Of a DNA stretch of 64,000 bases, positions 1,729 to 54,902 are shown one piece after another. The number at the start of each line of letters is the position of its first letter. Positions within the stretch are counted from its first letter, which is position 1. The translations under genes and the position numbers were made by a program. The notes under the pieces were generated by a model, which saw only the letters and a list, made by a program, of their open reading frames with translations, was not told where the DNA came from and did not search any database. The DNA is taken from contig NZ_QRGA01000001.1 of NCBI RefSeq assembly GCF_003367175.1, positions 1 through 64,000 of the forward strand, given 5' to 3'. This DNA is from Trinickia dinghuensis (lineage in GTDB: Bacteria; Pseudomonadota; Gammaproteobacteria; Burkholderiales; Burkholderiaceae).

Positions 1729-1896
1729 GGCCGCCGAGCGCATCGCCGGCCCGCTTCCGGCTCCCGCCGGACGGGAATCGGAGACGGGTACGTCGATCGC
1801 GCTTTTGCTAATAATCGTCTCCTCTTATATTTTCGCGTCCCGGATTTTCCCGCCCCACACTGCGCCCATACCTTGCTGAGAAAAGGGAATGGAACT

Positions 1897-3094: not shown

Positions 3095-3700
3095 ATGTCC
3101 GCCATCGATATCCGCCCCCTCTCGTCGGTGCCCGCCGAGCCGTGGCGAAACGGCGGCGGCATCACGAGAACCTTGGCGACGAACGGAAAGGCGTGGCGAG
3201 TCAGCGTTGCTCAGGTAGAGCGTGATGGCCCCTACTCCCGCTTCGAAGGCATCACGCGCGTTTCTTTCGTTCTGCGCGGCCGTGGCGTGACGCTGCGCGC
3301 CGCGGAGCCGAGGTCCAGCGCCGTCGTCGCGCTCGAACCCTTCGAAGCCGTCGAATATGACGGCGGCATCGAATGGGACGCGAGCCTCGTCGATGGCCCC
3401 GTGACCGCGCTGAACGTCATGAGCGCGGCGGGCCGTTATCGGGTGACAGTGGATGCGATCGTCGTCGCGACGATCGTCCCGCCGGGATGCGCGGCCATCG
3501 TAGTCGCCCTCGATAGCGAGCTCCGCTACAGCTACGGCGAACCGGGCGCATCCGGTGCCGGTGCAGGCACCGTCGAGGCGGGACAGTTCATGGTCGTGCA
3601 CAGCGTCGACCGGCCGCTTCGCCTGGAGCCGAACAGCCGCGGAGCCAAGCCTCCGATCATCGTCACCATCCAGTCCGCCGCGGCCGGCACAACCGATTGA
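3095..3700 (+). CDS. hutD: HutD family cupin protein
   Basis: A 201-residue HutD/Ves-type double cupin. Diagnostic stretches are PAEPWRNGGGITR near residue 15 and a FEGITRVSFVLRGRG segment near residue 50. HutD proteins accompany histidine-utilisation genes and are proposed to sense or buffer formylglutamate-type metabolites rather than catalyse a pathway step. The start ATG follows a GAGGAG ribosome site and lies 10 bp after the FAD dehydrogenase stop. What is odd is the setting: it sits between a FAD dehydrogenase and its electron-transfer flavoprotein, with no hutH, hutU or hutI in the window, although two HutG-type genes lie downstream (6408 and 23588). Confidence 0.8.
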   Translation: MSAIDIRPLSSVPAEPWRNGGGITRTLATNGKAWRVSVAQVERDGPYSRFEGITRVSFVLRGRGVTLRAAEPRSSAVVALEPFEAVEYDGGIEWDASLVDGPVTALNVMSAAGRYRVTVDAIVVATIVPPGCAAIVVALDSELRYSYGEPGASGAGAGTVEAGQFMVVHSVDRPLRLEPNSRGAKPPIIVTIQSAAAGTTD

Positions 3701-3718: not shown

Positions 3719-4468
3719 ATGAAGGTGCTTACGGCAGTCAAGCGCGTTGTCGATTACAACGTGAAAGTCCGCGTCAAATCCGATCACAGCGGCGTCGACA
3801 TCGGCAACGTCAAGATGTCGATGAACCCGTTCGACGAAATCGCGACGGAAGCGGCCACGCGTCTGAAGGAAGCCGGCGTGGCCACGGAAGTCGTGGCCGT
3901 CTCCTGCGGCGTAGCGCAAAGCCAGGAAACGCTGCGCACGGCGCTTGCGATCGGCGCCGATCGCGGCGTGCTTGTCGAAACCGACGTCGAATTGCAATCG
4001 CTTGCCGTGGCGAAACTGCTCAAGGCGGTCGTCGAGCGCGAGCAGCCGCAGCTCGTCATCCTCGGCAAGCAGGCGATCGACGACGACGCGGGGCAAACCG
4101 GTCAACTTCTGGCTGCCCTGCTCGACTGGCCGCAAGCCACGTTCGCCAGCCACATCGACATCGCCGACGGCCGCGCAACGATCACGCGCGAAGTGGACGG
4201 CGGCATGGAAGTCGTTTCCCTACGCTTGCCCGCGATCGTCACGACCGATCTTCGCTTGAACGAGCCGCGCTACGTCACGCTGCCGAACATCATGAAAGCG
4301 AAGAAGAAGCCGATCGACATCGTCAAACCCGCGGACCTCGGTGTCGATCCCACTCCGCGCCTGAAGACGCTCAAGGTCGCCGAACCGCCGGCTCGCAAAG
4401 CGGGCGTCATGGTTCCGGATGTCGCCGCGCTCGTCGAGAAACTGAAAACTGAAGCCAAGGTGATCTGA
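3719..4468 (+). CDS. etfB: Electron transfer flavoprotein subunit beta
   Basis: A 249-residue ETF small subunit, starting [20 protein letters not shown] and containing the family's [17 protein letters not shown] signature (here [19 protein letters not shown], about residues 113-131) and the partner-recognition region around residue 190-200. With EtfA it forms a soluble heterodimer that takes electrons from flavin dehydrogenases and hands them to ETF-QO. The start follows a GAGGAG-like site; the stop is immediately followed by the etfA ATG, so translation is probably coupled. Length matches the family norm. Confidence 0.95.
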
Positions 4469-5395
4469 ATGCCTACCCTCGTAATCGCGGAATACGATGC
4501 TCAACTGAAGAGCTCGACGCTCAATACCGTTTCTGCCGCACGAAAGGTGGGTAACGGCGTGCACGTGCTCGTCGCCGGCAGCGGGGCCCGAGCCATCGCC
4601 GATGCGGCGAAAACCATTGAAGGCGTGGACAAAGTGATTCTCGTCGACGCGCCGCACCTTGCGCATGGGCTCGCCGAGAATCTCGCCGCGCAGGTGCTCG
4701 CCCTTGCCAAGGACTACTCGCATATCTTCTTCCCCGCGACGGCTGCGGGCAAAAACACGGCGCCGCGTGTTGCGGCCAAGCTCGATGCGTCGCAGATCTC
4801 CGACGTCATTGCGATCGATTCGGCCGATACATTCCAGCGTCCGATCTACGCGGGCAACGCCATCGCCACCGTGCAATCGCCCGATCCCGTGAAGGTCGCT
4901 ACGATCCGGACTACCGCGTTCGAAGCCGCGCGTGCCGAAGGCGGCAATGCCGAAATCGTCGACGTGCCGGCCGTCGCGGACACGGGTCTCTCGACCTTCG
5001 TGCGCCGCGAAATCGCTGCGAACGATCGCCCCGATCTGACGGGTGCACGCGTCGTCGTTTCGGGCGGCCGCGGCCTCGGCAGCGCCGAAAACTTCGCGCT
5101 GCTCGATCCGCTCGCCGAAAAGCTCGGCGCGGCCATCGGCGCATCGCGCGCGGCAGTGGATTCGGGCTATGCGCCCAACGATTTGCAGGTCGGCCAAACC
5201 GGGAAGATCGTCGCACCCGAACTCTATGTCGCAGTGGGTATCTCGGGGGCCATTCAGCATCTGGCCGGCATGAAGGATTCGAAAATCATCGTCGCGATCA
5301 ACAAGGATGCGGAAGCGCCGATCTTCGGCGTCGCCGATTACGGACTCGTCGCGGATTTGTTCGAAGCCGTACCGGAATTCGCGAAATCGATTTGA
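4469..5395 (+). CDS. etfA: Electron transfer flavoprotein subunit alpha
   Basis: A 308-residue ETF large subunit. The C-terminal FAD-binding domain is recognisable from GRGLGSAENF (about residue 196) through SGYAPNDLQVGQTGKIV to ISGAIQHLAGM and the final VADYGLVADLFE motif. It begins one base after the etfB stop. It is the last gene of the dehydrogenase-hutD-etfBA operon and is followed within 40 bp by a strong intrinsic terminator. A second, housekeeping ETF is probably encoded elsewhere; dedication of this copy to the neighbouring dehydrogenase is inference from the operon. Confidence 0.95.
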   Translation: MPTLVIAEYDAQLKSSTLNTVSAARKVGNGVHVLVAGSGARAIADAAKTIEGVDKVILVDAPHLAHGLAENLAAQVLALAKDYSHIFFPATAAGKNTAPRVAAKLDASQISDVIAIDSADTFQRPIYAGNAIATVQSPDPVKVATIRTTAFEAARAEGGNAEIVDVPAVADTGLSTFVRREIAANDRPDLTGARVVVSGGRGLGSAENFALLDPLAEKLGAAIGASRAAVDSGYAPNDLQVGQTGKIVAPELYVAVGISGAIQHLAGMKDSKIIVAINKDAEAPIFGVADYGLVADLFEAVPEFAKSI

Positions 5396-6327: not shown

Positions 6328-6427
6328 ATGGAAAACAAGCACATCGGAGGTCCGCTTCGACAACTTCCTCACCGAAGAAGGCCGGCTTGAAGAAGCCACC
6401 GCAACCGCTATGAAGCGAATCGTAGCG
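6328..6427 (+). pseudogene. Frameshifted remnant of a HigA-type HTH antitoxin N-terminus
   Basis: ATG at 6328 reads MENKHIG; after a one-base surplus at about 6349-6352 the next frame reads RFDNFLTEEGRLEEATATA then MKRIVA to 6427. Joined, these match the N-terminal signature common to small XRE/HigA-like antitoxins (typically M-KNKHIG-S-FDDFL-EEG-LEEATA-A-KRVIAWQ). The helix-turn-helix core that should follow is absent; the sequence instead runs into the 3' end of hutG, whose stop codon (6408-6410) overlaps the remnant. A broken gene is seen directly; the family assignment is from memory of this antitoxin group. Confidence 0.6.
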
Positions 6428-7208
6428 TCCGCAGCGCCGCCGACACCATGCCCTCGACCACCGGTTCGACTTTCTCCGCAAGATCCGGCCGGTACTCGAA
6501 CGGTGCCGTCTCGTTCATGTAGGTCGACTGGCACATCTCGAGTTGAACCGCATGCACGCCTTGCTCAGGCTGACCATAGGCTCGTGTAATGTGGCCGCCC
6601 TTGAATCGTCCGTTCGCCACCCAAGTGAACGGCTGATCGCTCAACGACGCAGTGATCGCGTCGAGCACACGTGGATCGCAGCTTGAACCCGAGTTCGTGC
6701 CTATGTTCAGATCGGGCAACTTGCCTTCGAACAGCCGAGGCAAAACACTGGCGATCGAATGTGCTTCCCAGAGCAGCACGTTGCCGAACTCCGCTTTCAA
6801 GCGATCCAACTCCTGCCGAAGCTTCGCGTGGTACGGATGCCAATACGCGTTCAAGCGACGTTCCACTTCGCTCGAATCGGGCGCGCCGCCGTCCGGATAC
6901 AGCGGCTCGCCGCGGAACGTCTCCGTGGGACACAACCCCGTCGTCGTCTGGCCCGGATAGAGGCTCTCGCCGCTCGACGGGCGATTGAGATCGATCACGT
7001 AGCGCGAGAAGCGCGCCCCCAGCACGGATGCGCCCATCGCAGCGGCAAACCCGTACAGGCGATCGAGATGCCAATCGGTGTCGGCAACCACACCGGCGAT
7101 ATCGGTCAGCTGCGTGCGAACGTCCGAAGGAATTTCCGTACCGAGGTGAGGAATCGAGATGAGAAGCGGGATGTTGCCCCGCTGAAAATGAAAACCGGTA
7201 TCGCTCAA
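6408..7208 (-). CDS. hutG: N-formylglutamate deformylase
   Basis: A 266-residue protein if translation starts at the TTG at 7208, which has a GAGGAA ribosome site seven bases upstream and gives the usual family length; the frame is open to an ATG at 7304 that would add 32 atypical residues. Family motifs include PHLGTEIP, DTDWHLDRLY, RYVIDLNRP, the PGQ-TTGLCP segment, LLWEAHSI and GVHAVQLEMCQSTYMNE. The enzyme hydrolyses N-formyl-L-glutamate to glutamate and formate, the last step of one histidine-degradation route, in the cytoplasm. No other hut enzyme gene is adjacent. Its 3' end overlaps the antitoxin remnant. The 304-bp gap to the next gene (7209-7512) holds both divergent promoters, with no clear motif seen. 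Confidence 0.85.
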   Translation of the reverse strand: MSDTGFHFQRGNIPLLISIPHLGTEIPSDVRTQLTDIAGVVADTDWHLDRLYGFAAAMGASVLGARFSRYVIDLNRPSSGESLYPGQTTTGLCPTETFRGEPLYPDGGAPDSSEVERRLNAYWHPYHAKLRQELDRLKAEFGNVLLWEAHSIASVLPRLFEGKLPDLNIGTNSGSSCDPRVLDAITASLSDQPFTWVANGRFKGGHITRAYGQPEQGVHAVQLEMCQSTYMNETAPFEYRPDLAEKVEPVVEGMVSAALRTLRFAS

Positions 7209-7512
7209 GATGCGTTCCTCAGTACTCGTCCTAGCGACTGCCGCGCCACAGGCTTCATAGGGTGAATTCGGCTGCTTGGGTTCTTGAACATCCATTACAT
7301 CCAATGCGCGAGCGCCCGACAGCGAATCTCACGCCGGCGACAACCATATCGACCGCCCACGAGAACCAACCACACCATCACGGCCGCTTACGATCTTTAT
7401 AAGCAAACGTTATCCAACACCTGCCCGCGCGTTTCCGGGAGGAATCTGCTGACGATCGAACATTCCGAGAAACGAACCGCATCGCAGCGATGCGTGTGCT
7501 CAATAAAGCGGC

Positions 7513-9187: not shown

Positions 9188-10252
9188 ATGAGTAGCTCTT
9201 TGAAGGCGATAGCGCTGGTCGCCATGGGGATGGTAGCCGTCCCCGCCATGGCAACCGATCTGGTTTTTGCATCTTGGGGCGGCTCGTACCAAGACGCCCA
9301 GGACACGACGGCCGTGCGTCCGTTCAGCGCGAAGTCCGGCGATCAGATCAAGATCGACACGTACAACGGCGGCATTGCTCAGATTCGCAGCCAGGTCGAG
9401 ACGCACAACGTCACATGGGACGTGGTCGACATGCAGCTCGCCGATGCGACGCGCGCATGCGACGAGGGGCTGCTCGAGCCGATCAACGCCGCCTCCCTGC
9501 CCGCATCCTCGAAGGGCGCGGCAGCCAAGTCCGACTTCTTGCCGGGCGGGCTCTCCGATTGCATGGTCGGCAACGTCTCCTGGTCGACGATGATCACCTA
9601 CAACAAGAGCGCGTTCAAAGGCAAAGAGCCGACCAAGATCGGCGATTTCTTCGACCTCAAAAAATTCCCTGGGAAACGTGGCCTTCGCAAGTCGCCCGAG
9701 GGCGCGCTCGAGTGGGCGCTGCTTGCCGACGGCGTCCCGGCTGGCGATGTCTACAAGGTGCTCTCCACGCCGGCCGGCGTAGATCGTGCGTTCAAGAAGC
9801 TCGACACGATCAAGTCGTCGATCGTCTGGTGGGAGGCCGGCGCCCAGCCGCCACAACTGCTCGCCGACGGCGAAGTGACGATGACGAGCGCCTATCCCAA
9901 CCGCATTTATACCGCGGTGATGCAGGATAAGAAGCCGTTCGGCTTCCTGTGGGATGGCGAAGTGAAGAACATCGAAGGTTATGCCATCGTCAAGGGCACG
10001 AAGAACCTGAAGGCCGCGCAGGATTTCGTCAACTTCGCGACTTCGACCGATGCGCTCGCGAAGCTCTCGTCCGCCACGGCACTGGGCCCGATGCGCCAGT
10101 CGTCGATTCCGGAAGTCGATCCGAAGGTCGGTCCTTACCTTCCGACCGCACCGCAAAATCAGAAGGACGCCGTCGACGTCAACGTCGCCTTCTGGGCCGA
10201 CCATTCCGACGATCTGAATCAGAAGTTCGCGGTTTGGCTCGGACAGAAGTAA
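9188..10252 (+). CDS. PotD-like periplasmic binding protein of an ABC transporter
   Basis: A 354-residue extracellular solute-binding protein of the spermidine/putrescine (PotD) cluster. It has a Sec signal peptide of about 22 residues ending AMA, followed by DLVFASWGGSYQDAQ, the typical first strand of this family. A GAGG ribosome site precedes the ATG. It carries no permease next to it; the matching permeases and ATPase are probably those at 16237-19458, in the oppositely oriented pruA-putA operon. If so, the system imports proline, a betaine or another small cationic or zwitterionic compound rather than a polyamine. A strong terminator follows 38 bp after the stop. Confidence 0.85.
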   Translation: MSSSLKAIALVAMGMVAVPAMATDLVFASWGGSYQDAQDTTAVRPFSAKSGDQIKIDTYNGGIAQIRSQVETHNVTWDVVDMQLADATRACDEGLLEPINAASLPASSKGAAAKSDFLPGGLSDCMVGNVSWSTMITYNKSAFKGKEPTKIGDFFDLKKFPGKRGLRKSPEGALEWALLADGVPAGDVYKVLSTPAGVDRAFKKLDTIKSSIVWWEAGAQPPQLLADGEVTMTSAYPNRIYTAVMQDKKPFGFLWDGEVKNIEGYAIVKGTKNLKAAQDFVNFATSTDALAKLSSATALGPMRQSSIPEVDPKVGPYLPTAPQNQKDAVDVNVAFWADHSDDLNQKFAVWLGQK

Positions 10253-12383: not shown

Positions 12384-15300
12384 TTAGAGCGCGTCCTCGC
12401 TCAGCACCATCAACTGCGTGTTGCCGCCCGCCGCGCTCGCGTTCACCGTCGTGATGCGCTCCCGCACCAGTTGCGGCCAGTCATAGCCGCCGTTCACGGT
12501 TTCCTCGATACAGCAGAGCTTGGACTGCATCGCGGTCGCGCGCAGATTCGACGTGCCGTTTTGCTTTCGCGTGACCATCACCGCATCGGGACGGGCTTGG
12601 ACATCCTCGCCGCGAATGATGTCCGCCGCATCGGCAGAGCGTGCGATGCGGCATGACTTTCCAAGCTTGCCGGCAATGTCCTTGGCGAACTGCGTCTCGA
12701 CCAAGATCACCTCGTTGCCGAACGCGCAAGCAGCCATCGCTTGGACAACGACATCGACCGCGCTTTCTCCCGCGCACAACACGCGCCCGCGCGGCAGCAG
12801 CTCCACCGTGTTTTCCTCGCCCGTCAGCGCGGGCAAGCTGATCGGATCGAGACGCTCGATCAGCGTCGTTAGGCGTTGCCGGTGGTTCGCGATTTCGACC
12901 TTGAATGAATGGTCGGCATGGAGAGTCATCGCCAGGTCGTACAGCGCATCGATGTTGCGGCGCGCCGCCTCGCGCGCGCGAGTCATGGCGTCGCGGCGGC
13001 TGAACGATTTACCGTCCGCCGATTCGACGGGAAATTCGTAGAACTTCTCGCTCACGACACCCGGAGTCGAAGCAAACGGACCATTCGACGCATTGAACGA
13101 CGGCGCGATGGTGCGCGTCAGCGCGAACAGCGTGAGCGGACCGCCCGACATCGGCACGGCACCGCAAAGCCCGATGCCGCCGAAAGGCTGCATGCCAGGG
13201 AAAGGACTGTGCATCGCGCGGTTGACGCACACCGCGTTCGCCGTCGAGCGCGACAGCAGTTTGCCGGCCGCCTCGTTGATGCGCGTATGCAACCCCAGGA
13301 CCGCGCAGCCGAGATCGTTGAGGCGGGCCAGCAGCGAGTCCATGTCGCCCGTCTTGAACCGCACGACATGCAGCACCGGCCCGACGACGGTGCCGTCGAA
13401 CGCCGCGAGCGAGTCCAGAGCCCCAAGGTCCACGATCGTTGGCGCCACGAAATGGCCCTTCGCGCAGTGCGCCGGCAACGTCCCGCGCGTGACCTCGAAC
13501 CCTTTGCGCTGCAGTTGCCCGATATACGCCTCGACGCGATCGCGGACACTTCGCGTCGCGACCGGCCCGATGTCCGAAGCGACGCTCAAAGGGCTGCCCG
13601 TCACGCGTTCGCTGAGCATGCCCTTGAGCATGCGAAGTACCTTGTCGGCGGTCGAATCCTGCAGGCATAGCAAGCGCAACGAAGCTGCGCCTTGGCCCGC
13701 GCGCTTGAAAGCCGAGGTGATCGCATCGGAAATGACCTGCTCGGGCAACGCGGAGCTATCGACGACCATGGCATTCACGCCGCCCACCGCACCTAGCAAG
13801 CGCGGCGGCCGTGCCAACGCCGCAAGCTCCGTCGAGACGGCTTGCGCGCTTTCGACCGAACCGGCGAACAGCACCGCCGCGACTCGCTCATCCGATACGA
13901 GCGTGCGCCCCACGGTCTCGCCGGCACCGAGCACGAGTTGCAGCGCGCCAATCGGTACGCCGCTGCGATGGAACGCGCCGACGACCTCGCCGGCCACCAG
14001 CGACGCGCCGGTCGACGGCTTCGCGATCACCGCATTGCCTGCCGCGAGCGAAGACGAAATCTGTTCGACGAGCGCGAACATCGGCGAAGACACCGGCGAG
14101 AGTCCCACCACCACGCCGAGCGGTTCCGTCGTGTCGAGCCGGGTGTCGGTCTTGATCTGATAAGCGTACAGCCGGCATACGTTGATCGCGCTACGCACCT
14201 CTTCGGCCGCTTCGGCAAGCGTCATGCCGTTTTCCAGCACCAACAGCGCCCCGATTCGCGCGCTTGCACTCTGGATTGCATCGGTTGCGCGTTCGAGCGT
14301 CGCTGCGCGCTCGAGAGCCGGCGTGCGCGACCAGGCGCTTGCAGCGAACGAAGCCGCGGCCAGCACCTCGGGCACCGCACTCGGCTCGCTATCCGAGACG
14401 CTGCCGATGACATCGGTCGTATCGCCCGCGCCGTACACAAGCCGGGTCGCATCCGCGGCGCGCGGGTTTCCGCTCGCAACGATCGATTGCGCGGCCGGCC
14501 GCGTCGCGCGCAAGCTCGCAACCGCGTCCTGGAATTCGCGCGCGTTGCCATAGCTGAGGGCCTTTGCATTGACGCGCCCGGGAAGCACCGCACCCGGTGT
14601 AACGATGCCGCCATGCGGCTTGCCGCCCGTGCGAGCCGCCCGGGCCACCGGATCTTCGACAATGTCGGCGATGCTGACGGCCGGATCGACGATTTGATTC
14701 ACGAAAGAGGAATTCGCGCCGTTTTCGAGCAGACGCCGCACGAGGTAGGCGAGCAGCGTCGCGTGCGGGCCGACAGGCGCATAGATCCGGCAGGCGCGTT
14801 TAAGCTTCGACGGTCCGACGACTTGGTCGTAAACCGTTTCCCCCATGCCATGCAGGCATTGAAACTCGTATTCCTGGCCGCCCGCCAACGTATGAACCGC
14901 CGCAATCGAAAAAGCATTGTGCGTCGCAAACTGCGGAAAGATCGCATCCGGCGCGGCGAGCAATACCTTCGCACAGGCGATATAGCTGACGTCCGAATGG
15001 ACCTTGCGCGTGAACACCGGATAGCCGGCGGCACCCGCATCCTGCGCCAGCTTGATTTCCGTATCCCAGTACGCGCCCTTCACGAGGCGGATATTGAAGC
15101 GCCGCCCTGTCGCACGAGCGAGCGCGATGATCCAGTCGGCCACCGCACGGCCGCGCTTCTGATACGACTGCAGCGAAATGCCGATCCCATTCCAGCCCGC
15201 AAGGCTCGGCTCGCGGCTGAGCCGTTCAAGCATTTCGAGCGTGAGGTCGAACCGAGCCGACTCTTCCTGATCGAGGTGGAACCCGATGCCATAGTGCTTC

Positions 15301-16151
15301 GCCAACCGCGCGAGCTCGAGCAGCCGCGGGTAGAGTTCGACGAGCACCCGGTCGCGCTGCATCAGTTCATAGCGCGGATGCAGGCCGGATATCTTGACGG
15401 ATACGCCCGGGCCGTCGATCGGGCCACGCGCCTGGGCATCCTTGCCGATCGCCTCGATGGCGTGCCGATACGATTCGAAATACGCTTGCGCGTCCTCGTC
15501 CGTCAGCGCGGCTTCGCCGAGCATGTCGTACGAGTAGCGGTAGCCCGTCGCTTCGCGGCCCTTTGCAACCCCGATCGCCTCCTCGATCGTCTGCCCCGTG
15601 ACGAACTGCTTGCCGAGCATCCGCATCGCGTAGGCGACACCGGCGCGCACGACGGCTTCCCCGCCTTTCCTGACGACACGCGAGAGCGCCTCGGCCAGCG
15701 CGTTCTCGTCGGGCTGCTTGAGCAGCTTACCGGTGACGAGTAGCCCCCAAGCCGTCGCGTTGACGAACAACGAAGGCGATTTGCCGAGGTGGGCACGCCA
15801 ATCGGCGTCGACGATCTTGTCGCGAATGAGCTGATTGCGCGTTTCGGTGTCGGGGATGCGCAGCATCGCTTCAGCAAGGCACATCAAGGCGATCCCTTCA
15901 CGGCTGTCGAGCGAGAACTCCTGCGTGAGCAGATCGACGCCGCCGGCATCGATGCGCGCGTCGCGCACGCCCTGCGCGAGCTGCGCGGCCAGCGCCTGGG
16001 CTTTCGCGAGCGTCGGCGGATCCATCCGCGCTTGTTCCATCAACTCCAGGATGACCTCCTGCTCGGGCCGGGCCGTGGCATCGTGGATGCGTTGGCGCAA
16101 TGCGGCAAGGTCTGGCGAAGCGGTCTGCGTGGCTTGGATTTCCGACAACAT
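12384..16151 (-). CDS. putA: PutA-type proline dehydrogenase with a degenerate aldehyde dehydrogenase domain
   Basis: A 1255-residue PutA. There is no N-terminal ribbon-helix-helix, so it cannot self-regulate. The proline dehydrogenase barrel (about 60-500) keeps RLVKGAYWDTEIK (near 355), YAPVG and the substrate-binding RR pair in LVRRLLENGANSSF (near 471). The aldehyde dehydrogenase domain (about 560-1010) has lost its chemistry: the oxyanion Asn of SPWNFP is Ser688 in SPVSSP; the general-base Glu of ETGGQN is Ala788 in AVGGVN; the nucleophile Cys of GQRCSA is Ala822 in GQGAAS. The 34-residue spacing of the last two sites equals that of active PutA. A C-terminal ALDH-superfamily domain (about 1040-1255) ends VNASAAGGNTQLMVLS, as in long PutAs. 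Predicted to make pyrroline-5-carboxylate but not oxidise it; PruA (19541) would do that step. Confidence 0.92.
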   Translation of the reverse strand: MLSEIQATQTASPDLAALRQRIHDATARPEQEVILELMEQARMDPPTLAKAQALAAQLAQGVRDARIDAGGVDLLTQEFSLDSREGIALMCLAEAMLRIPDTETRNQLIRDKIVDADWRAHLGKSPSLFVNATAWGLLVTGKLLKQPDENALAEALSRVVRKGGEAVVRAGVAYAMRMLGKQFVTGQTIEEAIGVAKGREATGYRYSYDMLGEAALTDEDAQAYFESYRHAIEAIGKDAQARGPIDGPGVSVKISGLHPRYELMQRDRVLVELYPRLLELARLAKHYGIGFHLDQEESARFDLTLEMLERLSREPSLAGWNGIGISLQSYQKRGRAVADWIIALARATGRRFNIRLVKGAYWDTEIKLAQDAGAAGYPVFTRKVHSDVSYIACAKVLLAAPDAIFPQFATHNAFSIAAVHTLAGGQEYEFQCLHGMGETVYDQVVGPSKLKRACRIYAPVGPHATLLAYLVRRLLENGANSSFVNQIVDPAVSIADIVEDPVARAARTGGKPHGGIVTPGAVLPGRVNAKALSYGNAREFQDAVASLRATRPAAQSIVASGNPRAADATRLVYGAGDTTDVIGSVSDSEPSAVPEVLAAASFAASAWSRTPALERAATLERATDAIQSASARIGALLVLENGMTLAEAAEEVRSAINVCRLYAYQIKTDTRLDTTEPLGVVVGLSPVSSPMFALVEQISSSLAAGNAVIAKPSTGASLVAGEVVGAFHRSGVPIGALQLVLGAGETVGRTLVSDERVAAVLFAGSVESAQAVSTELAALARPPRLLGAVGGVNAMVVDSSALPEQVISDAITSAFKRAGQGAASLRLLCLQDSTADKVLRMLKGMLSERVTGSPLSVASDIGPVATRSVRDRVEAYIGQLQRKGFEVTRGTLPAHCAKGHFVAPTIVDLGALDSLAAFDGTVVGPVLHVVRFKTGDMDSLLARLNDLGCAVLGLHTRINEAAGKLLSRSTANAVCVNRAMHSPFPGMQPFGGIGLCGAVPMSGGPLTLFALTRTIAPSFNASNGPFASTPGVVSEKFYEFPVESADGKSFSRRDAMTRAREAARRNIDALYDLAMTLHADHSFKVEIANHRQRLTTLIERLDPISLPALTGEENTVELLPRGRVLCAGESAVDVVVQAMAACAFGNEVILVETQFAKDIAGKLGKSCRIARSADAADIIRGEDVQARPDAVMVTRKQNGTSNLRATAMQSKLCCIEETVNGGYDWPQLVRERITTVNASAAGGNTQLMVLSEDAL

Positions 16152-16236: not shown

Positions 16237-17073
16237 TCAGAACGCCTCGACGGCGCCCCGCAGCCGTTCGGTTCGGCGGCGCAGAAGTTCGAGCGTGACG
16301 AGCAGCAGCGTCGAGATGACGACGAGCAACGAGGCGACGGCCAGAATCGTCGGGCTCAGCTGTTCGCGAATACCGGCCCACATCTGGCGCGGAATCGTCA
16401 TCTGATCGGGTCCCGTCAAGAACAGCGCGACGACGATTTCGTCGAAGGACGTGGCAAATGCGAACAACGCGCCCGAAATGACGCCCGGCGCGATGATCGG
16501 CAGCTTGACCTGCAGAAACACGCGCAACGGCGACGCGCCAAGGCTGCGGCCGGCGCGCGAAAGGTTCTCGTTGAAGCCGGCCAGCGTGGCGGTGACCGTG
16601 ACGACGACGAACGGCACGCCCAGTGCCGCATGGGCGAGGATCAGGCCGAACAAATTGTTCACGAGCCCCAGCGGGCTGAACGCGAAATACACCCCCACCG
16701 CGGTGATGATGACCGGCACGATCATCGGCGAGACGAGCACCCCCGTGATCAGCGCCTTGCCCTTCATGCGCGGGCTCGTCAGGCCCAGCGACGCCATGAT
16801 GCCCAGCACTGACGCGATGAAGGTTGCGGACACGCCGGTAATCATCGTGTTCTTCAACGCCAGCATCCACTCCGGACTGTTCAGGAACCGCTCGTACCAG
16901 CGCAGGCTGAAGCCCGCCAGCGGGTACGTAAAATAGGGCTGCGAGTTGAACGACAGCGGCATCACCACCAAGACCGGTGACACCAAAAACAGCAGAACCA
17001 GAAGCGAAATCGCCAAATGAGAGAGCCTGCCAACACGGCCCCACACCGTCACATACGCCGGAAAGTTGAACAT
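16237..17073 (-). CDS. ABC transporter permease, PotC type
   Basis: A 278-residue inner-membrane permease with about six membrane segments and the ATPase-contacting EAA loop in the form AGRSLGASPLRVFLQVKLP (about residues 188-206). The opening after the first helix, PLSFNSQPYFTYPLAGFSLRWYERF, is typical of the PotC/YdcV group. It lies 5 bp after the PotB-type gene and 85 bp before putA in the same leftward operon. ATG 17073 has a GGGGTAAGG ribosome site. With the permease at 17078, the ATPase at 18379 and probably the binding protein at 9188, it forms one importer. Confidence 0.9.
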   Translation of the reverse strand: MFNFPAYVTVWGRVGRLSHLAISLLVLLFLVSPVLVVMPLSFNSQPYFTYPLAGFSLRWYERFLNSPEWMLALKNTMITGVSATFIASVLGIMASLGLTSPRMKGKALITGVLVSPMIVPVIITAVGVYFAFSPLGLVNNLFGLILAHAALGVPFVVVTVTATLAGFNENLSRAGRSLGASPLRVFLQVKLPIIAPGVISGALFAFATSFDEIVVALFLTGPDQMTIPRQMWAGIREQLSPTILAVASLLVVISTLLLVTLELLRRRTERLRGAVEAF

Positions 17074-17077
17074 TGCC

Positions 17078-18361
17078 TTACCCCAGTTTCACGCCGGCGC
17101 CACCGGTCAGTTTCACGAACAGCCCATAGACGATCAGCACGCCGGCGAGAAGGATCGAGGCGAGCGCGCTGGCCAAGCCCCAATTGAGCGTCGTATTGAC
17201 GTGGTAGGCGATGTAGTAGCTCGCCAATTGATCATCCGGACCGCCCACGATGGCCGGCGTGATGTAGTACCCCACCGCCAGAATGAAGGTCAGCATGCCC
17301 GCGGCACCGACGCCGGGAAGCGTCTGCGGGAAATAGGCTTCGAAGAAGGAGCGCACAGGTCCCGCCCCTAGCGAGCGCGCCGCTTTGACGTACAGATTCG
17401 GCACGCCCTTCATCACGCTGTAGAGCGACAAGATCGCGTACGGCAGCAGAATGTGCGTCATCGCCACGAGCACGCCGAACCGGTTATAGATCAGCGACAA
17501 AGCATGATTCGTCAATCCGAGCCTGATCAGCATGTCGTTCAGGACGCCATGGGTTTGAAGCACGACCACCCATGCCGTCGTGCGCACGAGAATCGAAGTC
17601 CAGAACGGCAGCAGCACGAGAATCATGAACAGGTTGCTGTAGCGCGCCGGAATGTTGGCGAGAAAGTACGCCACGGGATAGCCGAACAGCAGGCACAACG
17701 CGCTGACCGCGATGCTGACCCATGCGGTCCGCAAGAAGACGCCGACATAAAGGCGCTGATCTTCCGGCTGCCTCACGATCTGCCCATGATCGTTGCGCGC
17801 GAAGTCGAACGCCTTGAGGTAATAGCCGAGCGTCCAGGGCGAAGACGCGTACTTCAGCGTCGACCACGGCTGGAGTTCATCCCATCGCGGGTCGACTGCG
17901 GAGAAGCGCTGGTGCCACGTTCCGTCACCGCCTTCTCCGAGCCGGCGCGCCGTCTTCATCAGCAAGCTGCGCATGCCCACGTCGTCGTAGTTCAAGCGCG
18001 AGGCCACCTCGCTAATCCCGTTGGTCCCTTTGATCGCAAGCAGGTCCCGGCCCAGCGCCTCGTAGACTTGATCGCCCGGCACCTTGCCGGCCGCGGGGTT
18101 CCACTCGCGCAACAGTGCAGCCGCATGCGGCACGCGCTCCGACAGCGTCGGATCGCGGAAGCTCTTCATCAGCAGGCTGCCGATCGGAACCAAGAAAACG
18201 ACGAGCAGGAAAGCGAACAGCGGAAACACCAGCAGCATCGCCTTGAAGCGCTCGGCGCGCTCCGCGCCGCGCAGTCTCGCCTTGAGACTCTTCGAATCCA
18301 CCACGGCAGCCTGGTCGGCATCGCCCTGCGGTACCGCAACATCGGTTGGCAAAATCATCAT
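17078..18361 (-). CDS. ABC transporter permease, PotB type
   Basis: A 427-residue permease, longer than usual because of a soluble insert of about 130 residues between the first and second membrane helices, a known variant in PotB/YdcU-like proteins. The EAA loop is KAARSLGAGPVRSFFEAYFP. The start is placed at ATG 18361 (preceded by GAGGA); an ATG at 18397 would overlap the ATPase gene. It follows the ATPase by 17 bp and precedes the PotC-type permease by 4 bp. It should form the heterodimeric channel with the latter. Confidence 0.88.
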   Translation of the reverse strand: MMILPTDVAVPQGDADQAAVVDSKSLKARLRGAERAERFKAMLLVFPLFAFLLVVFLVPIGSLLMKSFRDPTLSERVPHAAALLREWNPAAGKVPGDQVYEALGRDLLAIKGTNGISEVASRLNYDDVGMRSLLMKTARRLGEGGDGTWHQRFSAVDPRWDELQPWSTLKYASSPWTLGYYLKAFDFARNDHGQIVRQPEDQRLYVGVFLRTAWVSIAVSALCLLFGYPVAYFLANIPARYSNLFMILVLLPFWTSILVRTTAWVVVLQTHGVLNDMLIRLGLTNHALSLIYNRFGVLVAMTHILLPYAILSLYSVMKGVPNLYVKAARSLGAGPVRSFFEAYFPQTLPGVGAAGMLTFILAVGYYITPAIVGGPDDQLASYYIAYHVNTTLNWGLASALASILLAGVLIVYGLFVKLTGGAGVKLG

Positions 18362-18378
18362 GACGTCCTCGTGTGCGG

Positions 18379-19458
18379 CTATTGCAAGGCTCGGCACGCA
18401 TCGGCCATCCAGCCGACGTTCACCGAATCGCCGATACGCAATTGGCGCGCTGCGCCGTCGTTCGGCAGCTTCACGATGAAATCGTTACGCCCGCAAACCT
18501 GCATGACGACGCGCAGGTGATCGCCGTAATAGATCAGGTCCTTCACACCGCCGTTGAATACGTTGTCGCATGCGCGCGCTGCCTCACCCACGACGATGCG
18601 CTCGGGCCGCAGCGATACGCTGGCAAGCCCCATCTCGCGAATCGAGGGGCCCGCGCTCGCGCTGATGTCATGCCCGCCGTCGAGCTTAACCTTGCAGCGC
18701 GCAGCGCCATCGATAGACGAAATCGTGCCCTTCAATTCGTTGCTCTCGCCGATGAAGCGCGCGACGAACGCGTTCTCGGGTTTCTCGTAGAGTTCGGAGG
18801 GAGAAGCGAGCTGCTGGATCACGCCGTTGTTGAACACGGCGATCCGATCCGACATCGTCATCGCCTCGCTCTGATCGTGCGTGACATACACGACGGTCAG
18901 CCCGCTCTGTTCGTGAATCTGCTTGATTTCGTACTGCATCTGCTCGCGCAGTTGTTTGTCGAGCGCGCCGAGCGGTTCGTCCATCAGCACCAGCGCCGGC
19001 TCGAACACGAGTGCACGCGCCACCGCGACGCGCTGCTGCTGGCCGCCGGAAAGCTGGCCCGGCATCCGATTGGCGAACTTGTCCATGTTCACCATGCTCA
19101 GCGCACGCTTCACCTTTCGAGCGATCTCGTCCTTCGCCATCTTGCGCACGCGCAGCGGAAACGCCAGGTTTTCGGCCACCGACTTATGCGGGAACAACGC
19201 GTAGTTCTGGAACACCATGCCGATGTTGCGGCGCTCCGGCGGAATGCGATTGATCGGCTTGCTCTGCAGAAGGATTTCGCCGTGCGTGGCCGTCTCGAAC
19301 CCCGCCAGCATCATCAGGCATGTCGTCTTGCCCGACCCCGACGGCCCGAGCATCGTCAAAAACTCTCCCTCGCGAATCTCGAGGTTCAAGTTCTTGACCA
19401 CGAGGTTTTCGCCGTCGTAGGTTTTCTGTACGTTTTTGAAAGAAACAATGGTCGACAT
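18379..19458 (-). CDS. ABC transporter ATPase, PotA type
   Basis: A 359-residue ATPase: Walker [11 protein letters not shown] (near 39), Q-loop VFQNYALFP, signature [15 protein letters not shown], Walker [15 protein letters not shown] and switch His in [14 protein letters not shown] domain occupies about 285-355. The start has a TGGGGAA ribosome site. It is the second gene of the pruA-putA operon, 82 bp after pruA, and powers the two following permeases. Confidence 0.93.
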
Positions 19459-19540: not shown

Positions 19541-21148
19541 TTAAGCGCCGAAGCGCCATTCGCGCGTGGGCAGATACGTTTCCTTCACCACGCGCGGCGA
19601 AGCCCAGCGCAGCAGGTTCAGGTACGAACCGGCCTTGTCGTTGGTGCCGCTCGCGCGGCCGCCGCCGAACGGCTGCTGGCCGATCATCGCGCCCGTCGGC
19701 TTGTCGTTCAGGTAGAGGTTGCCCGCCGCGTTGATGAGCACGCTTTCGGCTCGGTGCAGCGCGAAGCGGTCCGTGCAGAAGATCGAGCCCGTGAGCGCGT
19801 AGGGGCTCGTCGCATCGATCAGCGTGAGCGTCTCGTCCCAGGCGTTGTCGTCGTAGACGAACACCGACAGAACCGGGCCGAACAGCTCTTCCGTCATGAG
19901 CGCATGTTTCGGATCGCTCACTTGCAGGACCGTCGGCTCGACGAACCAGCCCGGCTCCGACCAGGTCCGGCCGCCCGAGATCACCGTGACGCCCGCATCG
20001 TCCTTCGCGGCCTCGATCGCGCGCGACAGCTTCTGATGCGAAGCCTGCGAGATGACCGCACCCATGAACGTATCGGGATCGGCCACGTCGCCCACCTTCA
20101 GCACGGCCAGCCGATCGCGCAGTTGCGTGCTCACCTCGCCCCACAGGCTGTTAGGAATGTAAGCGCGCGATGCCGCGCTGCACTTTTGCCCCTGGTAGCC
20201 GAACGCGCCGCGGATCAGCGCGATGGCCACTTCCGACGCGTTGGCCGACGGATGCGCGAGGACGAAGTCCTTGCCGCCCGTCTCGCCGACCAGGCGCGGA
20301 ATCGTCCGGAAGCTTTCGACCTTGGAGGCCACCTCTTTCCAAAGCGATTGGAAGACGGCCGACGAACCCGTGAAATGGATGCCCGCGAGGTCGCGCGACG
20401 ACATCACCGCGCGCGTCGTCATCTCGGCCTCGCCGGGCACGAAGTTGATGACGCCGGGCGGCAAGCCTGCCTCTTCAAGCGCTTCGAAGAAGATGTAGTT
20501 GGCGAGCGCCGATTTTTCCGACGGCTTCCAAAGCACCGTGTTGCCCATGATCGCGGGCGCCGTCGTCAAGTTCGTGCCGATCGCCGTGAAATTGAATGGC
20601 GACACTGCATAGACGAAGCCTTCGAGCGGACGCCAATCGGCACGGTTGACGGCCGTCGGCACGGACATCGGCTGCTCGGCGTACACACGCTGCGCGTTGT
20701 AGGCGTTGAAGCGCAGGAAGTCCATCAGTTCGCAGGCGCTGTCGGGCTCGGCTTCCTCGATCGTCTTGCTCTGGCCCAGCATCGTGGCCGCGTTGATCTT
20801 CATGCGCAAACGCGTGCCCACGATATCGGCGGCGCGATGCAGAATCGTCGCGCGGCTCGCGTGCGTCAGGCTGGCCCAATCGCGTGCGACGGCCTTGGAA
20901 CTCGCGATCGCTTCATCGACTTGCGCTTGCGTGGGACGGTGGATCCGAGCGAGCAGGCGTTGCGTGTCGTGCGGCGCGCGCACCTCGACCACGTCGTTCG
21001 AAAAATATCGCTTCCCGCCAATGACCGTCGGAATCTCGACCACCTCGCGGGCCGCGAGCGCTTGGCTCAACTCGGCCGCCGCTGCCGTTCCCTTGCCGAA
21101 ATGGACTTCCGGCTCGTTGGCCGGCAACGGAAATTGTGGACCTGACAT
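19541..21148 (-). CDS. pruA: L-glutamate gamma-semialdehyde (pyrroline-5-carboxylate) dehydrogenase
   Basis: A 535-residue stand-alone P5C dehydrogenase of the long PruA group. The general base is in LVGETGGKDF (Glu about 289) and the nucleophile in YQGQKCSAASR (Cys323); SPFNFTAIG supplies the oxyanion Asn. It oxidises glutamate semialdehyde to glutamate with NAD. ATG 21148 has an AAAGGAG ribosome site; a GTG directly before it is a possible but less likely start. It is the first gene of the leftward operon whose last gene encodes a PutA lacking a working aldehyde dehydrogenase, so it probably supplies the missing activity. The divergent TetR gene and three operator-like dyads lie upstream. 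Confidence 0.93.
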   Translation of the reverse strand: MSGPQFPLPANEPEVHFGKGTAAAAELSQALAAREVVEIPTVIGGKRYFSNDVVEVRAPHDTQRLLARIHRPTQAQVDEAIASSKAVARDWASLTHASRATILHRAADIVGTRLRMKINAATMLGQSKTIEEAEPDSACELMDFLRFNAYNAQRVYAEQPMSVPTAVNRADWRPLEGFVYAVSPFNFTAIGTNLTTAPAIMGNTVLWKPSEKSALANYIFFEALEEAGLPPGVINFVPGEAEMTTRAVMSSRDLAGIHFTGSSAVFQSLWKEVASKVESFRTIPRLVGETGGKDFVLAHPSANASEVAIALIRGAFGYQGQKCSAASRAYIPNSLWGEVSTQLRDRLAVLKVGDVADPDTFMGAVISQASHQKLSRAIEAAKDDAGVTVISGGRTWSEPGWFVEPTVLQVSDPKHALMTEELFGPVLSVFVYDDNAWDETLTLIDATSPYALTGSIFCTDRFALHRAESVLINAAGNLYLNDKPTGAMIGQQPFGGGRASGTNDKAGSYLNLLRWASPRVVKETYLPTREWRFGA

Positions 21149-21346
21149 CACGCTAACTCCTTTAGGAAGAACTTTCGGACGACATCCCGAACAGGCCGGG
21201 CCTCAGAGATCGGGTTTTCCCTTATCAGATAAGGCTCCGCGCCCGATGGACCCGATGTAAAAGCTGCGTTTGCAGGTTAGTGGCTGCAATAAGAAGGGCT
21301 GCTTGCTTAAACCCGACTTATGCTGAGGATCGGCTGCTGTTATGAA

Positions 21347-21458: not shown

Positions 21459-21652
21459 CACAATCGCGCCTCCGACGAACTATATCGCCAAACTCGGCAG
21501 GGCGAAGCAGGAAAGATCCCCCGTATTTTCCCGAATCCAACGCATTTTTTAGAAAAAATGCGGGTAAACCCGCAATCAACGTCGCTCAGGTGAAATTAAA
21601 CATCCGTTCAATATGAGGTCGATCATCCTCGGCCACCAGGCGATATCGATCA

Positions 21653-21668
21653 CTGAACAATCGATCAG
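21653..21668. promoter_or_regulatory. TetR operator-like dyad, copy 3
   Basis: CTGAACAATCGATCAG, with the left 11 bases identical to copy 2. It lies 95 bp upstream of the TetR start codon, in the right place for autoregulation. Confidence 0.65.
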
Positions 21669-21762
21669 TCATCTTCCATTCCGATGTACCATGCTTGCCA
21701 TCCTCGTGCCGCGCGCCCAGCAGCGTTCGCGCCGGCGCGGCCTACACGACGAAGGAACGCAC

Positions 21763-22419
21763 ATGCAGCAAGCGAGCGCGGCGGCGCCAACCGCGACCGA
21801 CGCAAGAAAAGACGACACGGGCCACTACGAAGGCATGCGCCTTCGGCTCATCGATTCGACGCTCGCGGTGGTGGGTCAGGTCGGGCTCGAGAACCTCACG
21901 ATCCGCAAGGTCAGCGAGCATGCGGGCGTATCGGTCGGGCTCGTTCACCATCACTTCGAGAACAAGAGCAACCTCGTCTACAAGACGTTCGTCTATTTGA
22001 TTCGGCGAGTCCGCGATCAATTGACGGCAGGCCGGCGCGGCATCGCCGATCCGGTCGAGCGCATGAAGTTCACGGCGGACATGTGCTTCAGCGATGAAGT
22101 CATGAGCCCGGGCGCGGCCAATGTCTGGCCGCACATGTGGAGTTCGTCGGCCCACGACGAAGAAGTGCAGCGCCTATGCGCGGCGTTTTCCCGCCGCCTG
22201 CGCTCGAACTTCATCTATGACTTGCGTCAAGCCGGCTGCGACCGGACGATGGCGACCATCCACGCCATTCAAGCGATGGCGCTGGTTCATGGTCTATGGA
22301 TAGAGCATCGCGTCGCCGCGACGATTTCGATCGACGAAGTGCTCGGCGTCTTTCACGGCGTCATCGATAACGCGACGGGACGCGTATGGCGCATGAACGT
22401 GAATCGGCCGCGTCATTAG
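21763..22419 (+). CDS. TetR/BetI-like transcriptional regulator
   Basis: A 218-residue TetR-family repressor. The N-terminal helix-turn-helix reads LTIRKVSEHAGVSVGLVHHHFENKSNLVYKTF, whose VSVGLVHHHF core is typical of BetI and related choline/betaine regulators. ATG 21763 has an AAGGAA ribosome site seven bases upstream; the frame stays open to 21613 but the extra 50 residues are low in family character. It is divergent from the pruA operon and flanked by three copies of a CTGA-N8-TCAG dyad. It probably represses both itself and the operon until proline, a betaine or a derived aldehyde is present. Confidence 0.88.
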   Translation: MQQASAAAPTATDARKDDTGHYEGMRLRLIDSTLAVVGQVGLENLTIRKVSEHAGVSVGLVHHHFENKSNLVYKTFVYLIRRVRDQLTAGRRGIADPVERMKFTADMCFSDEVMSPGAANVWPHMWSSSAHDEEVQRLCAAFSRRLRSNFIYDLRQAGCDRTMATIHAIQAMALVHGLWIEHRVAATISIDEVLGVFHGVIDNATGRVWRMNVNRPRH

Positions 22420-22513: not shown

Positions 22514-23515
22514 CTACTCTTCATCAGGCAGGCTGATCTCTTCCTGCTTCAACGAAAGCGCCTTCGCGATATCGCGCGAGACCTGGCGCTCGAACGACTG
22601 CCGCAGCATCTCGTACATATCGGCAGGCAGGTGGCCCAACTCGTTTTCGCGGAAGGCCAAATAGAACGAACGGCTGAGCCGTTGATAAGGGCGCCCGTGC
22701 CGGGAAAACGACGACAGCGGAACGACGCGAACATCGGGCACGTAATGCCTCGATTGCCATAGGCATAGCGGCGTCGTCACCGCGAAGCCGAGGCCCGCGG
22801 CAACGAGGCTGAGCATCGGGTCGGTCGCATCGAACTCGCAGGTGCGCTCGATGTTTTCCGAATTCGAGGCAAGATAGGCATCGACGTGCTGCCCGATCAC
22901 CGACCGCGCACTGTAGCGGATGAACTGCAAATTTCGGCTCAGATCGGCCAGCGTCGAAAATCGGTCCACCTCGAAGCCCGCCGGCAGCACGACGAAGTAC
23001 TGCTCAGAAAACAGCTTCTGCCGGCGGATGCCGGGGACTTGAGAAAAGCCGTTGGTCGTCACCGCCATATCGAGCTGGCGTGCCTCGAGCTGGGCGTCGA
23101 GCGTAGGCGTGATGCCCGACCACAAGCGAATCTGATGGGACGTGCCGGACAGCGCCTTGATGATGATCGGGCCGATCGTCGCCGCGAACGAATCGACGCA
23201 TCCGAGCCGCACTACCACGCGCTTCGCCCGCGTGACGTTGCGCACGCTCTCGACCATTTCGTCGGCGCCCGTGAGCAGCACCGTTGCATGCTCGAACAAA
23301 CGTTGACCCGCCGCCGTGGGCCGAGCCGGGCGCGTTGTTCGATCGAGCAAGGTCGTATCCAGCAGCGTCTCGAGCGCCTTGATGCGCTGAGAGACTCCGG
23401 CCTGCGATATCGCAAGCCGATCGGCCGCGTCGGAGATCGAGCCGGCCTCGACGACGGCCACCCAGCTCGCCAACAGGCTCCAGTCGGGATACTGCTCAGG
23501 AACGCTCTCTTTCAT
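22514..23515 (-). CDS. LysR-family regulator
   Basis: A 333-residue LysR protein with an N-terminal winged helix (residues about 15-75; SISDAADRLAISQAGVSQRIKALE) and an effector domain. It lies 72 bp downstream of the HutG-like gene on the same strand and is probably cotranscribed. Two perfect T-N11-A boxes upstream of the HutG-like gene (24557-24591) are the likely targets. Its sequence differs clearly from the paired LysR proteins at 39479 and 54903. The inducer is unknown. Confidence 0.85.
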   Translation of the reverse strand: MKESVPEQYPDWSLLASWVAVVEAGSISDAADRLAISQAGVSQRIKALETLLDTTLLDRTTRPARPTAAGQRLFEHATVLLTGADEMVESVRNVTRAKRVVVRLGCVDSFAATIGPIIIKALSGTSHQIRLWSGITPTLDAQLEARQLDMAVTTNGFSQVPGIRRQKLFSEQYFVVLPAGFEVDRFSTLADLSRNLQFIRYSARSVIGQHVDAYLASNSENIERTCEFDATDPMLSLVAAGLGFAVTTPLCLWQSRHYVPDVRVVPLSSFSRHGRPYQRLSRSFYLAFRENELGHLPADMYEMLRQSFERQVSRDIAKALSLKQEEISLPDEE

Positions 23516-24445: not shown

Positions 24446-24556
24446 GCCCTCAGGTTCGCATCGCGATTCCCCGTTACCCACGCAGGCAACGGGCCGATGT
24501 CTGAACAAACATGGATGGACCCAAGGTAGTGGAACGCGTATGGCGCCCCCCGATCG

Positions 24557-27425: not shown

Positions 27426-27487
27426 GGCTCATTCTCCAAATCGAGTTCTAGCGCGCTGGAATCCGGACACGCCCGACCCAAAGCATT

Positions 27488-27508
27488 TTTAATTGCACTA
27501 CAATTAAA
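27488..27508. promoter_or_regulatory. IclR operator-like dyad
   Basis: TTTAATTG-CACTA-CAATTAAA is a perfect inverted repeat with 8-bp arms and a 5-bp centre. It lies between the divergent starts of the hydroxyacid dehydrogenase (27425) and the IclR gene (27538), and is markedly AT-rich against the background. Confidence 0.65.
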
Positions 27509-27537
27509 GCAGTCGCATTTCGATAATTCATAACGCC

Positions 27538-28368: not shown

Positions 28369-28398
28369 GCATTCGGCAACCGCCCTCGGCGAACCCTC

Positions 28399-29304: not shown

Positions 29305-29334
29305 CGAAGATCTCTCGAGTAAAGGATTGAAAGT

Positions 29335-31140: not shown

Positions 31141-31146
31141 CGTTCG

Positions 31147-32277: not shown

Positions 32278-32311
32278 CCGTTAATCGAGAGCGGAAAACA
32301 ACGAACAGGAC

Positions 32312-33415: not shown

Positions 33416-33434
33416 CGGTCTCCCACTTCTAGGA

Positions 33435-46336: not shown

Positions 46337-46357
46337 ATTTCCGTCCGATCCGTTACG

Positions 46358-47251: not shown

Positions 47252-47255
47252 TTCG

Positions 47256-54881: not shown

Positions 54882-54902
54882 CACTATCCTTGAAACTTAG
54901 CT

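Follow-up and report, generated by a model that had tools for sequence, protein, structure and literature searches.

Introduction

PutA is a standard case of channelling between fused enzymes, in which a proline dehydrogenase (PRODH) and an aldehyde dehydrogenase (ALDH) share one chain, and PutAs pass electrons from FAD to the quinone pool. Here we describe a PutA relative, called pseudo-PutA below, that is encoded on the minus strand at 12384..16151 of a 64,000-nucleotide stretch of the Trinickia dinghuensis genome (GCF_003367175.1, contig NZ_QRGA01000001.1, forward-strand positions 1 to 64,000), which we refer to as the window. Judged from its sequence, it appears to be a natural one-function PutA, and we think it probable that it serves as a dedicated PRODH for proline derived from proline betaines or hydroxyprolines, with the aldehyde step left to a separate enzyme, PruA, and the ALDH fold kept as a scaffold; its activities, the substrate of the surrounding genes and the hand-over to PruA we infer.

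The closest described systems are the type B PutAs, which consist of a core and a C-terminal domain with no ribbon-helix-helix (RHH) domain (PMC5293562). Pseudo-PutA shares with the type B proteins SmPutA (from S. meliloti) and RcPutA the order of its domains, the folds of both enzymes, the C-terminal domain and the lack of RHH, though its ALDH catalytic residues and most of those of the NAD and aldehyde pockets are replaced, and a PruA stands alongside. A similar combination of PRODH with a disabled or slowed second step is found in laboratory variants, for instance BjPutA C792A (PMC5786444) and SmPutA C844S and E810A (PMC12398946), but pseudo-PutA is natural, has all positions changed at once and is fixed in a family. 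The nearest pseudo-ALDH that our literature searches found is human ALDH16A1, a pseudoenzyme with an ALDH fold lacking the catalytic residues (PMC10650815). In the literature searched on PutA and ALDH pseudoenzymes, where few subscription papers were covered and others were available in part, we found no description of a PutA with a dead ALDH domain. Human ALDH16A1 is not fused to a PRODH and is not known to have a linked active ALDH. Organisms with monofunctional PRODH and 1-pyrroline-5-carboxylate (P5C) dehydrogenase likewise divide the two steps between two proteins, though the PRODH of the window still carries a full pseudo-ALDH half. Stachydrine catabolism in S. meliloti and Paracoccus shares with this locus a demethylase of the Rieske group and proline as product, but the window has a DAO-family enzyme and an electron transfer flavoprotein (ETF) where S. 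meliloti has StcD, a polyamine-type transporter, and the pair of pseudo-PutA and PruA.

A family with an apparently dead yet kept second enzyme offers a test of a non-catalytic role of ALDH for PRODH, of the passing of P5C to a separate PruA, and of how a channel evolves once it has no target left. In Burkholderiales and some relatives the family is also a marker of what is likely a catabolic island for modified prolines.

Loss of the ALDH active-site residues

Pseudo-PutA has 1,255 residues in PutA order, arm and alpha domains being followed by a PRODH domain with intact contact residues (residues 196-486, 14694..15566 on the minus strand; Pfam PF01619, 326.7 and 331 bits), a pseudo-ALDH domain (residues 578-1000, 13152..14420, minus strand) and a C-terminal domain. 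Residues were mapped by phmmer alignment to chains of SmPutA, whose published numbering appears to equal the chain index minus 2, a rule that fits at three residues. In this alignment Ser688, Ala788 and Ala822 lie opposite Asn707, Glu810 and Cys844, the oxyanion-hole Asn, hydrolysis Glu and nucleophile of SmPutA (PMC12398946), and the Glu of the EVFGPV motif has become Thr921. The spacing of 34 residues between positions 788 and 822 equals that between 810 and 844 in SmPutA, and this, together with the flanking GQ and SLR..C.Q letters, rules out a misalignment of the active site. A preliminary description of the window had named these four substitutions, the kept spacing, intact PRODH motifs and the lack of RHH, and all are borne out by the open reading frame (ORF) and by alignment with a PutA of known structure, the check that it had proposed. 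Further replacements affect both aromatic residues of PWNF (Trp and Phe), the KPAE Glu, the EVFGPV Phe, the Thr that follows the base and the Arg that precedes the nucleophile. The replaced Phe and Arg correspond to pocket residues described for B. japonicum PutA (PMC5786444).

None of the six cysteines of the ALDH domain (659, 829, 896, 949, 975 and 996) is aligned with the nucleophile, which rules out an alternative aligned Cys in that role, another point raised in the preliminary description; Cys829 is a Cys also present in canonical PutAs. That some other set of residues makes a working aldehyde dehydrogenase is extremely improbable, since nucleophile, base, oxyanion Asn, EVFGPV Glu, KPAE Glu, QRC Arg and PWNF Phe are all replaced and no Cys takes the place of the nucleophile; nothing in support of such an enzyme was found in this sequence analysis. 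The protein thus lacks the glutamate semialdehyde dehydrogenase (GSALDH) domain with catalytic Cys, Glu and Asn that would make it a bifunctional type B PutA.

Family models reflect this in part, the TIGR01238 score (388.3 bits) being under its cut-off of 485.2 and the "bifunctional PutA" model NF008869 still being passed (1057.1 vs 747). No RHH domain was found, there being no PF21775 match and a score of 1201.2 bits to the trifunctional model NF008772, with a cut-off of 1750. The C-terminal domain is present, as the BLASTP alignment to the other PutA of the genome extends to residue 1250. That second PutA carries the RHH domain (PF21775), and its existence rules out pseudo-PutA as the sole proline enzyme of the genome.

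The fold itself appears to be kept. AlphaFold2 models residues 1-1020 (mean pLDDT 80.2, pTM 0.79) with confidence across most of the ALDH half and with low confidence in sections of the arm (much of residues 70-182); the top Foldseek matches of this model are PutA structures (9dl3_B, TM 0.86, 46% identity, rmsd 5.6; S. meliloti 5kf6, 0.85). In the PRODH half, the SmPutA residues Asp306, Tyr373, Leu449, Tyr473, Tyr485, Arg488 and Arg489 (PMC11596857) have kept counterparts in Asp294, Tyr361, Leu433, Tyr457, Tyr469, Arg472 and Arg473. BjPutA C792A has no GSALDH activity and PRODH activity at the wild-type level (PMC5786444), so a PRODH can work alongside an ALDH half that is dead.

A single family under selection

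To place the protein among its relatives, 7,995 candidates from a database search were scored on the pseudo-ALDH domain, and the best 120 of 2,431 matches were aligned with 14 congeneric loci, those of the window's own genome among them (L011 left out). Sixty rows are pseudo-PutAs, namely 57 clusters at 90% identity (P0001, P0004-P0059) and L005-L007, which are near-copies of P0005/P0009. None of the four ALDH residues is kept in any of these 60, all four are kept in 73/73 canonical rows, and no intermediates were seen among the aligned rows. A sequencing error behind the substitutions, which the preliminary description had kept in view, is ruled out by a loss common to 57 clusters. The dead sites are filled by many letters (at the Glu position T18 A13 S10 Q7 and others), and most of the further replaced positions likewise have no canonical letter in any row, although Arg821 is still found in 7 and Thr789 in 6 of the 60. 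The named members of the 57 clusters are mostly annotated "bifunctional PutA" or the like, a name that is probably misleading for this family.

In a phylogeny built on residues 60-565, which cover the arm and the PRODH half, from 22 pseudo and 36 canonical rows, the pseudo-PutAs form a single clade with SH-aLRT 100 and a stem of 0.83. Of the 141 canonical-invariant PRODH positions the pseudo rows keep 124 and have lost 10 (PRODH counts are based on 59 rows, P0013, of 897 aa, having no PRODH domain listed), and among 165 such ALDH positions 87 are kept at >=90% and 35 at <=10%. By a simple count method, median dN/dS in near pairs (dS<0.6) is 0.029 for PRODH and 0.151 for ALDH in pseudo-PutAs (10 pairs), compared to 0.046 and 0.066 in canonical PutAs (68 pairs); for a wider set (0.1<dS<1) the values are 0.035 and 0.165 (20 pairs) compared to 0.102 and 0.185 (432 pairs). 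The PRODH part of pseudo-PutA is under stronger constraint than its ALDH and C-terminal parts. On these values selection still holds the ALDH half of pseudo-PutA, though less tightly than the PRODH half of the same proteins. This relaxation shows in the near pairs and in the ALDH/PRODH ratio; in the wider set the ALDH values by themselves do not show it.

One could see in the ALDH half plain decay, a useless part tolerated since its removal would unfold PRODH, and the ALDH/PRODH ratio of median dN/dS, ~5 in near pseudo pairs against 1.4 in near canonical pairs, agrees with this, as do the many different letters at the dead sites. We nevertheless consider decay clearly unlikely: there are no stop codons inside the ten pseudo-PutA matches from 200 family genomes, dN/dS is far below 1, more than half of the canonical-invariant ALDH positions are kept at the level given above, the fold is modelled with confidence, and in the wider set the pseudo ALDH value is not above the canonical one.

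The PruA operon and its distribution

Pseudo-putA is the last of five minus-strand genes, after pruA (19541..21151), which encodes a stand-alone L-glutamate gamma-semialdehyde dehydrogenase (TIGR01236, 700.5 vs 613.6 bits), a PotA-like ABC ATPase (18379..19458; TIGR01187, 376.6 vs 355.6 bits), a PotB/PotH-like ABC permease (17078..18397; under the PotB/PotH cut-offs) and a PotC-like one (16237..17073; under the PotC cut-off). The gaps between them, of 82, -19, 4 and 85 bases in that order, fit a single operon. PruA, as the preliminary description had said of the operon's first gene, has its catalytic residues intact (Asn187, Glu290, Cys324 and Glu422), and its highest-ranking PDB matches are 4idm, followed by mitochondrial P5C dehydrogenases. 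Around the operon lie a BetI-like TetR regulator (21613..22419, plus strand; NF001978, 119.7 vs 118 bits; TIGR03384, 117.7 vs 201.3), a LysR regulator (22514..23515, minus strand) and a polyamine-type substrate-binding protein (9188..10252, plus strand), a homologue of which lies inside the operon in several relatives.

One genome per species was scanned with two exact peptide patterns, which miss relatives differing there, and this gave 24 named pseudo-putA loci in Paraburkholderia, Caballeronia, Burkholderia, Trinickia, Pandoraea, Cupriavidus, Leeia, Azohydromonas and Aromatoleum; several of these species are known from legume nodules. Pseudo-putA, the ATPase and both permeases are found together in all 24 (tblastn), and pruA is in the flanks of 22 (ORF clusters), L095 and L097 being those whose flanks lack it; orthologues with a linked pruA are what the preliminary description had suggested looking for. 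Also near pseudo-putA are oxB, encoding a DAO/SoxB-like FAD oxidoreductase (in the window 1873..3084, plus strand), in 19 loci by ORF clusters and 21 by tblastn, and the N-formylglutamate deformylase gene hutG (6408..7304, minus strand; TIGR02017, 361.6 vs 278.75 bits) in 16 and 17, respectively. A gene that we take to be ETF-quinone-oxidoreductase-like, and that no family model names, is present in 13 of the 24 (ORF clusters), and a proline-racemase-family gene is whole or nearly whole in seven, with a fragment in L100 (tblastn). In nine other family genomes (six are identical with named loci, so the sets overlap) pruA, the ATPase, substrate-binding protein, permeases, TetR, LysR, oxB and HutG genes are near pseudo-putA in all, and the ETF genes etfBA (3719..5395 in the window, plus strand; beta 3719-4468, alpha 4469-5395) in eight, the stretch from G001 stopping at oxB.

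Across the 200 family genomes, pseudo-PutA was recognised as a match of at least 1695 bits, the next match having 977; among matches <977 bits, those of loci L040-L059 were read by residue, and 20/20 have the canonical PRODH motif. Ten genomes have pseudo-PutA, and each has at least one further PutA match (the row was seen for nine; G188 is by count, 2), with canonical ALDH residues in the four read (G000, G001, G007 and G009). PruA at >=77% identity (77-100%) is found in 10/10 of these genomes vs 2/190 others, oxB at >=71% in 10/10 vs 18/190, a Rieske oxygenase at >=65% in 9/10 vs 18/190 and the racemase-family gene at >=76% in 8/10 vs 0/190, though these identity cut-offs were chosen after the lists were seen and the genomes are related, so that Fisher values overstate independence. 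Each of the nine Rieske-positive genomes has a copy <=45 kb from pseudo-putA, and in seven of the eight with the racemase-family gene it lies <=20 kb away.

PruA does not need pseudo-PutA: strict dependence is ruled out by G023, G016 and the second G059 locus, which have PruA and no pseudo-PutA in the stretch examined. These loci bear on the possibility, also raised in the preliminary description, of a docking or hand-over role for the pseudo-ALDH domain, which would bind PruA or shape the tunnel exit and pass P5C on. The linkage to PruA agrees with such a role, as does the purifying selection on the domain, and Leu661, Ser833, Leu846, Arg849, Tyr876, Arg889, Leu954, Gly963, Leu966 and Met987 are invariant in 60/60 pseudo rows and unlike the commonest canonical letter. 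A minority of canonical rows, however, have some of these letters too, and the needs of the fold alone may account for all of them; PruA orthologues exist without the partner; and in the same genomes PruA (84-94% identity) is far more conserved than pseudo-PutA (63-73%). We regard docking as rather unlikely.

Proposed role of pseudo-PutA

The surroundings point to proline betaine N-demethylation and hydroxyproline use, ending in proline and glutamate, as the probable business of the island, because the window holds two Rieske oxygenases, a reductase, a formaldehyde dehydrogenase, a ProV-type transporter ATPase (TIGR01186, 350.1 vs 326.6) and a row of DAO, DHDPS-family and ALDH genes. Both Rieske oxygenases are placed in the GbcA/stachydrine demethylase group. 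The first (36696..37952, minus strand) has 410 bits to the GbcA model (cut-off 670), and the second (56102..57361, plus strand) has 380 bits to the same model; the three PDB matches of the latter at E<=1e-50 are 3vca and 4qup at 290 bits and 3n0q, named only putative, at 307, and 3vca is a stachydrine demethylase (PMC4014116). The reductase is GbcB-like (49905..51098, plus strand; 353.5 bits, cut-off 500), and the formaldehyde dehydrogenase is of the glutathione-independent kind (52541..53743, plus strand; TIGR02819, 750.3 vs 636.95 bits). The DAO, DHDPS-family and ALDH genes (45008-48755, minus strand) lie beside a GntR regulator (48816-49541), and their superfamilies are named for trans-4-hydroxyproline breakdown (PMC4113996).

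In the pathway we propose, a modified proline would be imported and stripped to proline, and the PRODH half would oxidise L-proline, or some closely related derivative of it, to P5C, with electrons passing from FAD to the quinone pool. The pseudo-ALDH half would be incapable of the second step and is probably a poor binder of NAD and aldehyde, its fold being retained to support the PRODH half. P5C or glutamate semialdehyde would then be released and oxidised to glutamate by PruA, the operon forming the last leg of a modified-proline catabolic island separate from the housekeeping PutA.

Several observations weigh against this picture. The assignment of the substrate depends on neighbouring genes, and glycine betaine or another quaternary amine is a possible substrate of the island because both Rieske oxygenases fall well under the GbcA cut-off. 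A Rieske gene is within 10 kb of pseudo-putA in just 4/24 named loci (tblastn), G112 has pseudo-PutA and no Rieske at the 65% cut-off, G001 and G049 have no racemase-family gene, and in G000 that gene lies >800 kb from pseudo-putA. Some ALDH features are retained (Lys711 in 56/60 rows, Gly764 in 60/60 and Ser823 in 47/60). Finally, positions beside the PRODH active site are altered in 59/59 pseudo rows having that stretch: Ala307 of SmPutA, next to Asp306, is Gln295 in all of them, and each also has Gly at 256, Ile at 325 and Ser at 326, sites usually occupied in canonical rows by Ala, Phe and Val, respectively. Because of these changes the substrate may be something other than plain proline; they may instead reflect altered flavin surroundings.

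These same changes favour a tentative alternative, to which we give less weight, in which the PRODH half has shifted to N-methylproline (or hydroxyproline), yielding N-methyl- (or hydroxy-) P5C that PruA would convert to N-methyl- (or hydroxy-) glutamate, with the methyl group removed as formaldehyde or formyl by oxB with ETF, formaldehyde dehydrogenase and HutG. The carbonyl of SmPutA Ala307, where pseudo-PutAs have the invariant Gln, binds active-site ligands (PMC11596857), the long stem of the clade in the PRODH-half tree would suit a shift, and so would the frequency of HutG and oxB among the named loci. On the other side, Lys253 and the seven contact residues listed above are kept in at least 90% of rows, and oxB is also found in genomes without pseudo-PutA. 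The kept contacts include a Tyr reported to favour proline over hydroxyproline. S. meliloti, moreover, has a separate N-methylproline demethylase, StcD (PMC12239276).

Not all of these explanations exclude the dedicated PRODH we favour. In a combined version, which seems to us doubtful, the ALDH half of the whole lineage would be a non-catalytic hand-over module, and the PRODH half would have shifted to a proline with an N-methyl group or another modification and would thereby supply PruA with a reactive modified P5C. If true, the second of two halves of an enzyme that channels its substrate would here have turned into a pseudoenzyme. The preliminary description had proposed a PRODH carrying a pseudo-ALDH scaffold linked to an intact PruA, which the sequences support, and possibly the oxidation of a proline analogue, which the neighbourhood and the invariant Gln make plausible. 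It did not mention the second PutA, the neighbouring catabolic genes or the changes that the whole family shows next to the PRODH site.

Other genes of the island

Between oxB and the ETF genes lies a HutD-family gene (3095..3700, plus strand). A malate/lactate-dehydrogenase-like gene (53910..54884, minus strand), here called LDH2, is 64% identical to a gene adjoining pseudo-putA in L087, and is found in 9/24 named loci (tblastn). Of four N-formylglutamate-amidohydrolase-family genes in the genome, two are in the window (6408-7304 and 23588-24508, both minus strand), and one of these two is HutG by score; HutG together with oxB and ETF also occurs in G118 and G069, both without a pseudo-PutA match. 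Adjoining the formaldehyde dehydrogenase gene is that of an M24-family protein (51248-52477, plus strand), which matches a single NCBIfam model at E<=1e-40, that of the DMSP lyase DddP, with a score under the cut-off (383 vs 600).

In L087 the racemase-family gene (10526-11575) has the motifs MSGGN and CPCGT, the Ser of the former standing where racemases have their first Cys; its relative in L081 scores under the cut-offs of all six matching families. A further set of window genes (26187-34862, minus strand), made up of LldD-like, DapA-like, polyamine-type ABC and FAD-linked oxidase genes, resembles one beside PruA in G023, parts of which recur in G016 and in G059 contig 2, all without pseudo-PutA. 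Downstream of pseudo-putA is the gene of a dCache chemoreceptor (10476-12272, minus strand), which has a 64% relative at the G059 locus and perhaps senses the substrate of the island.

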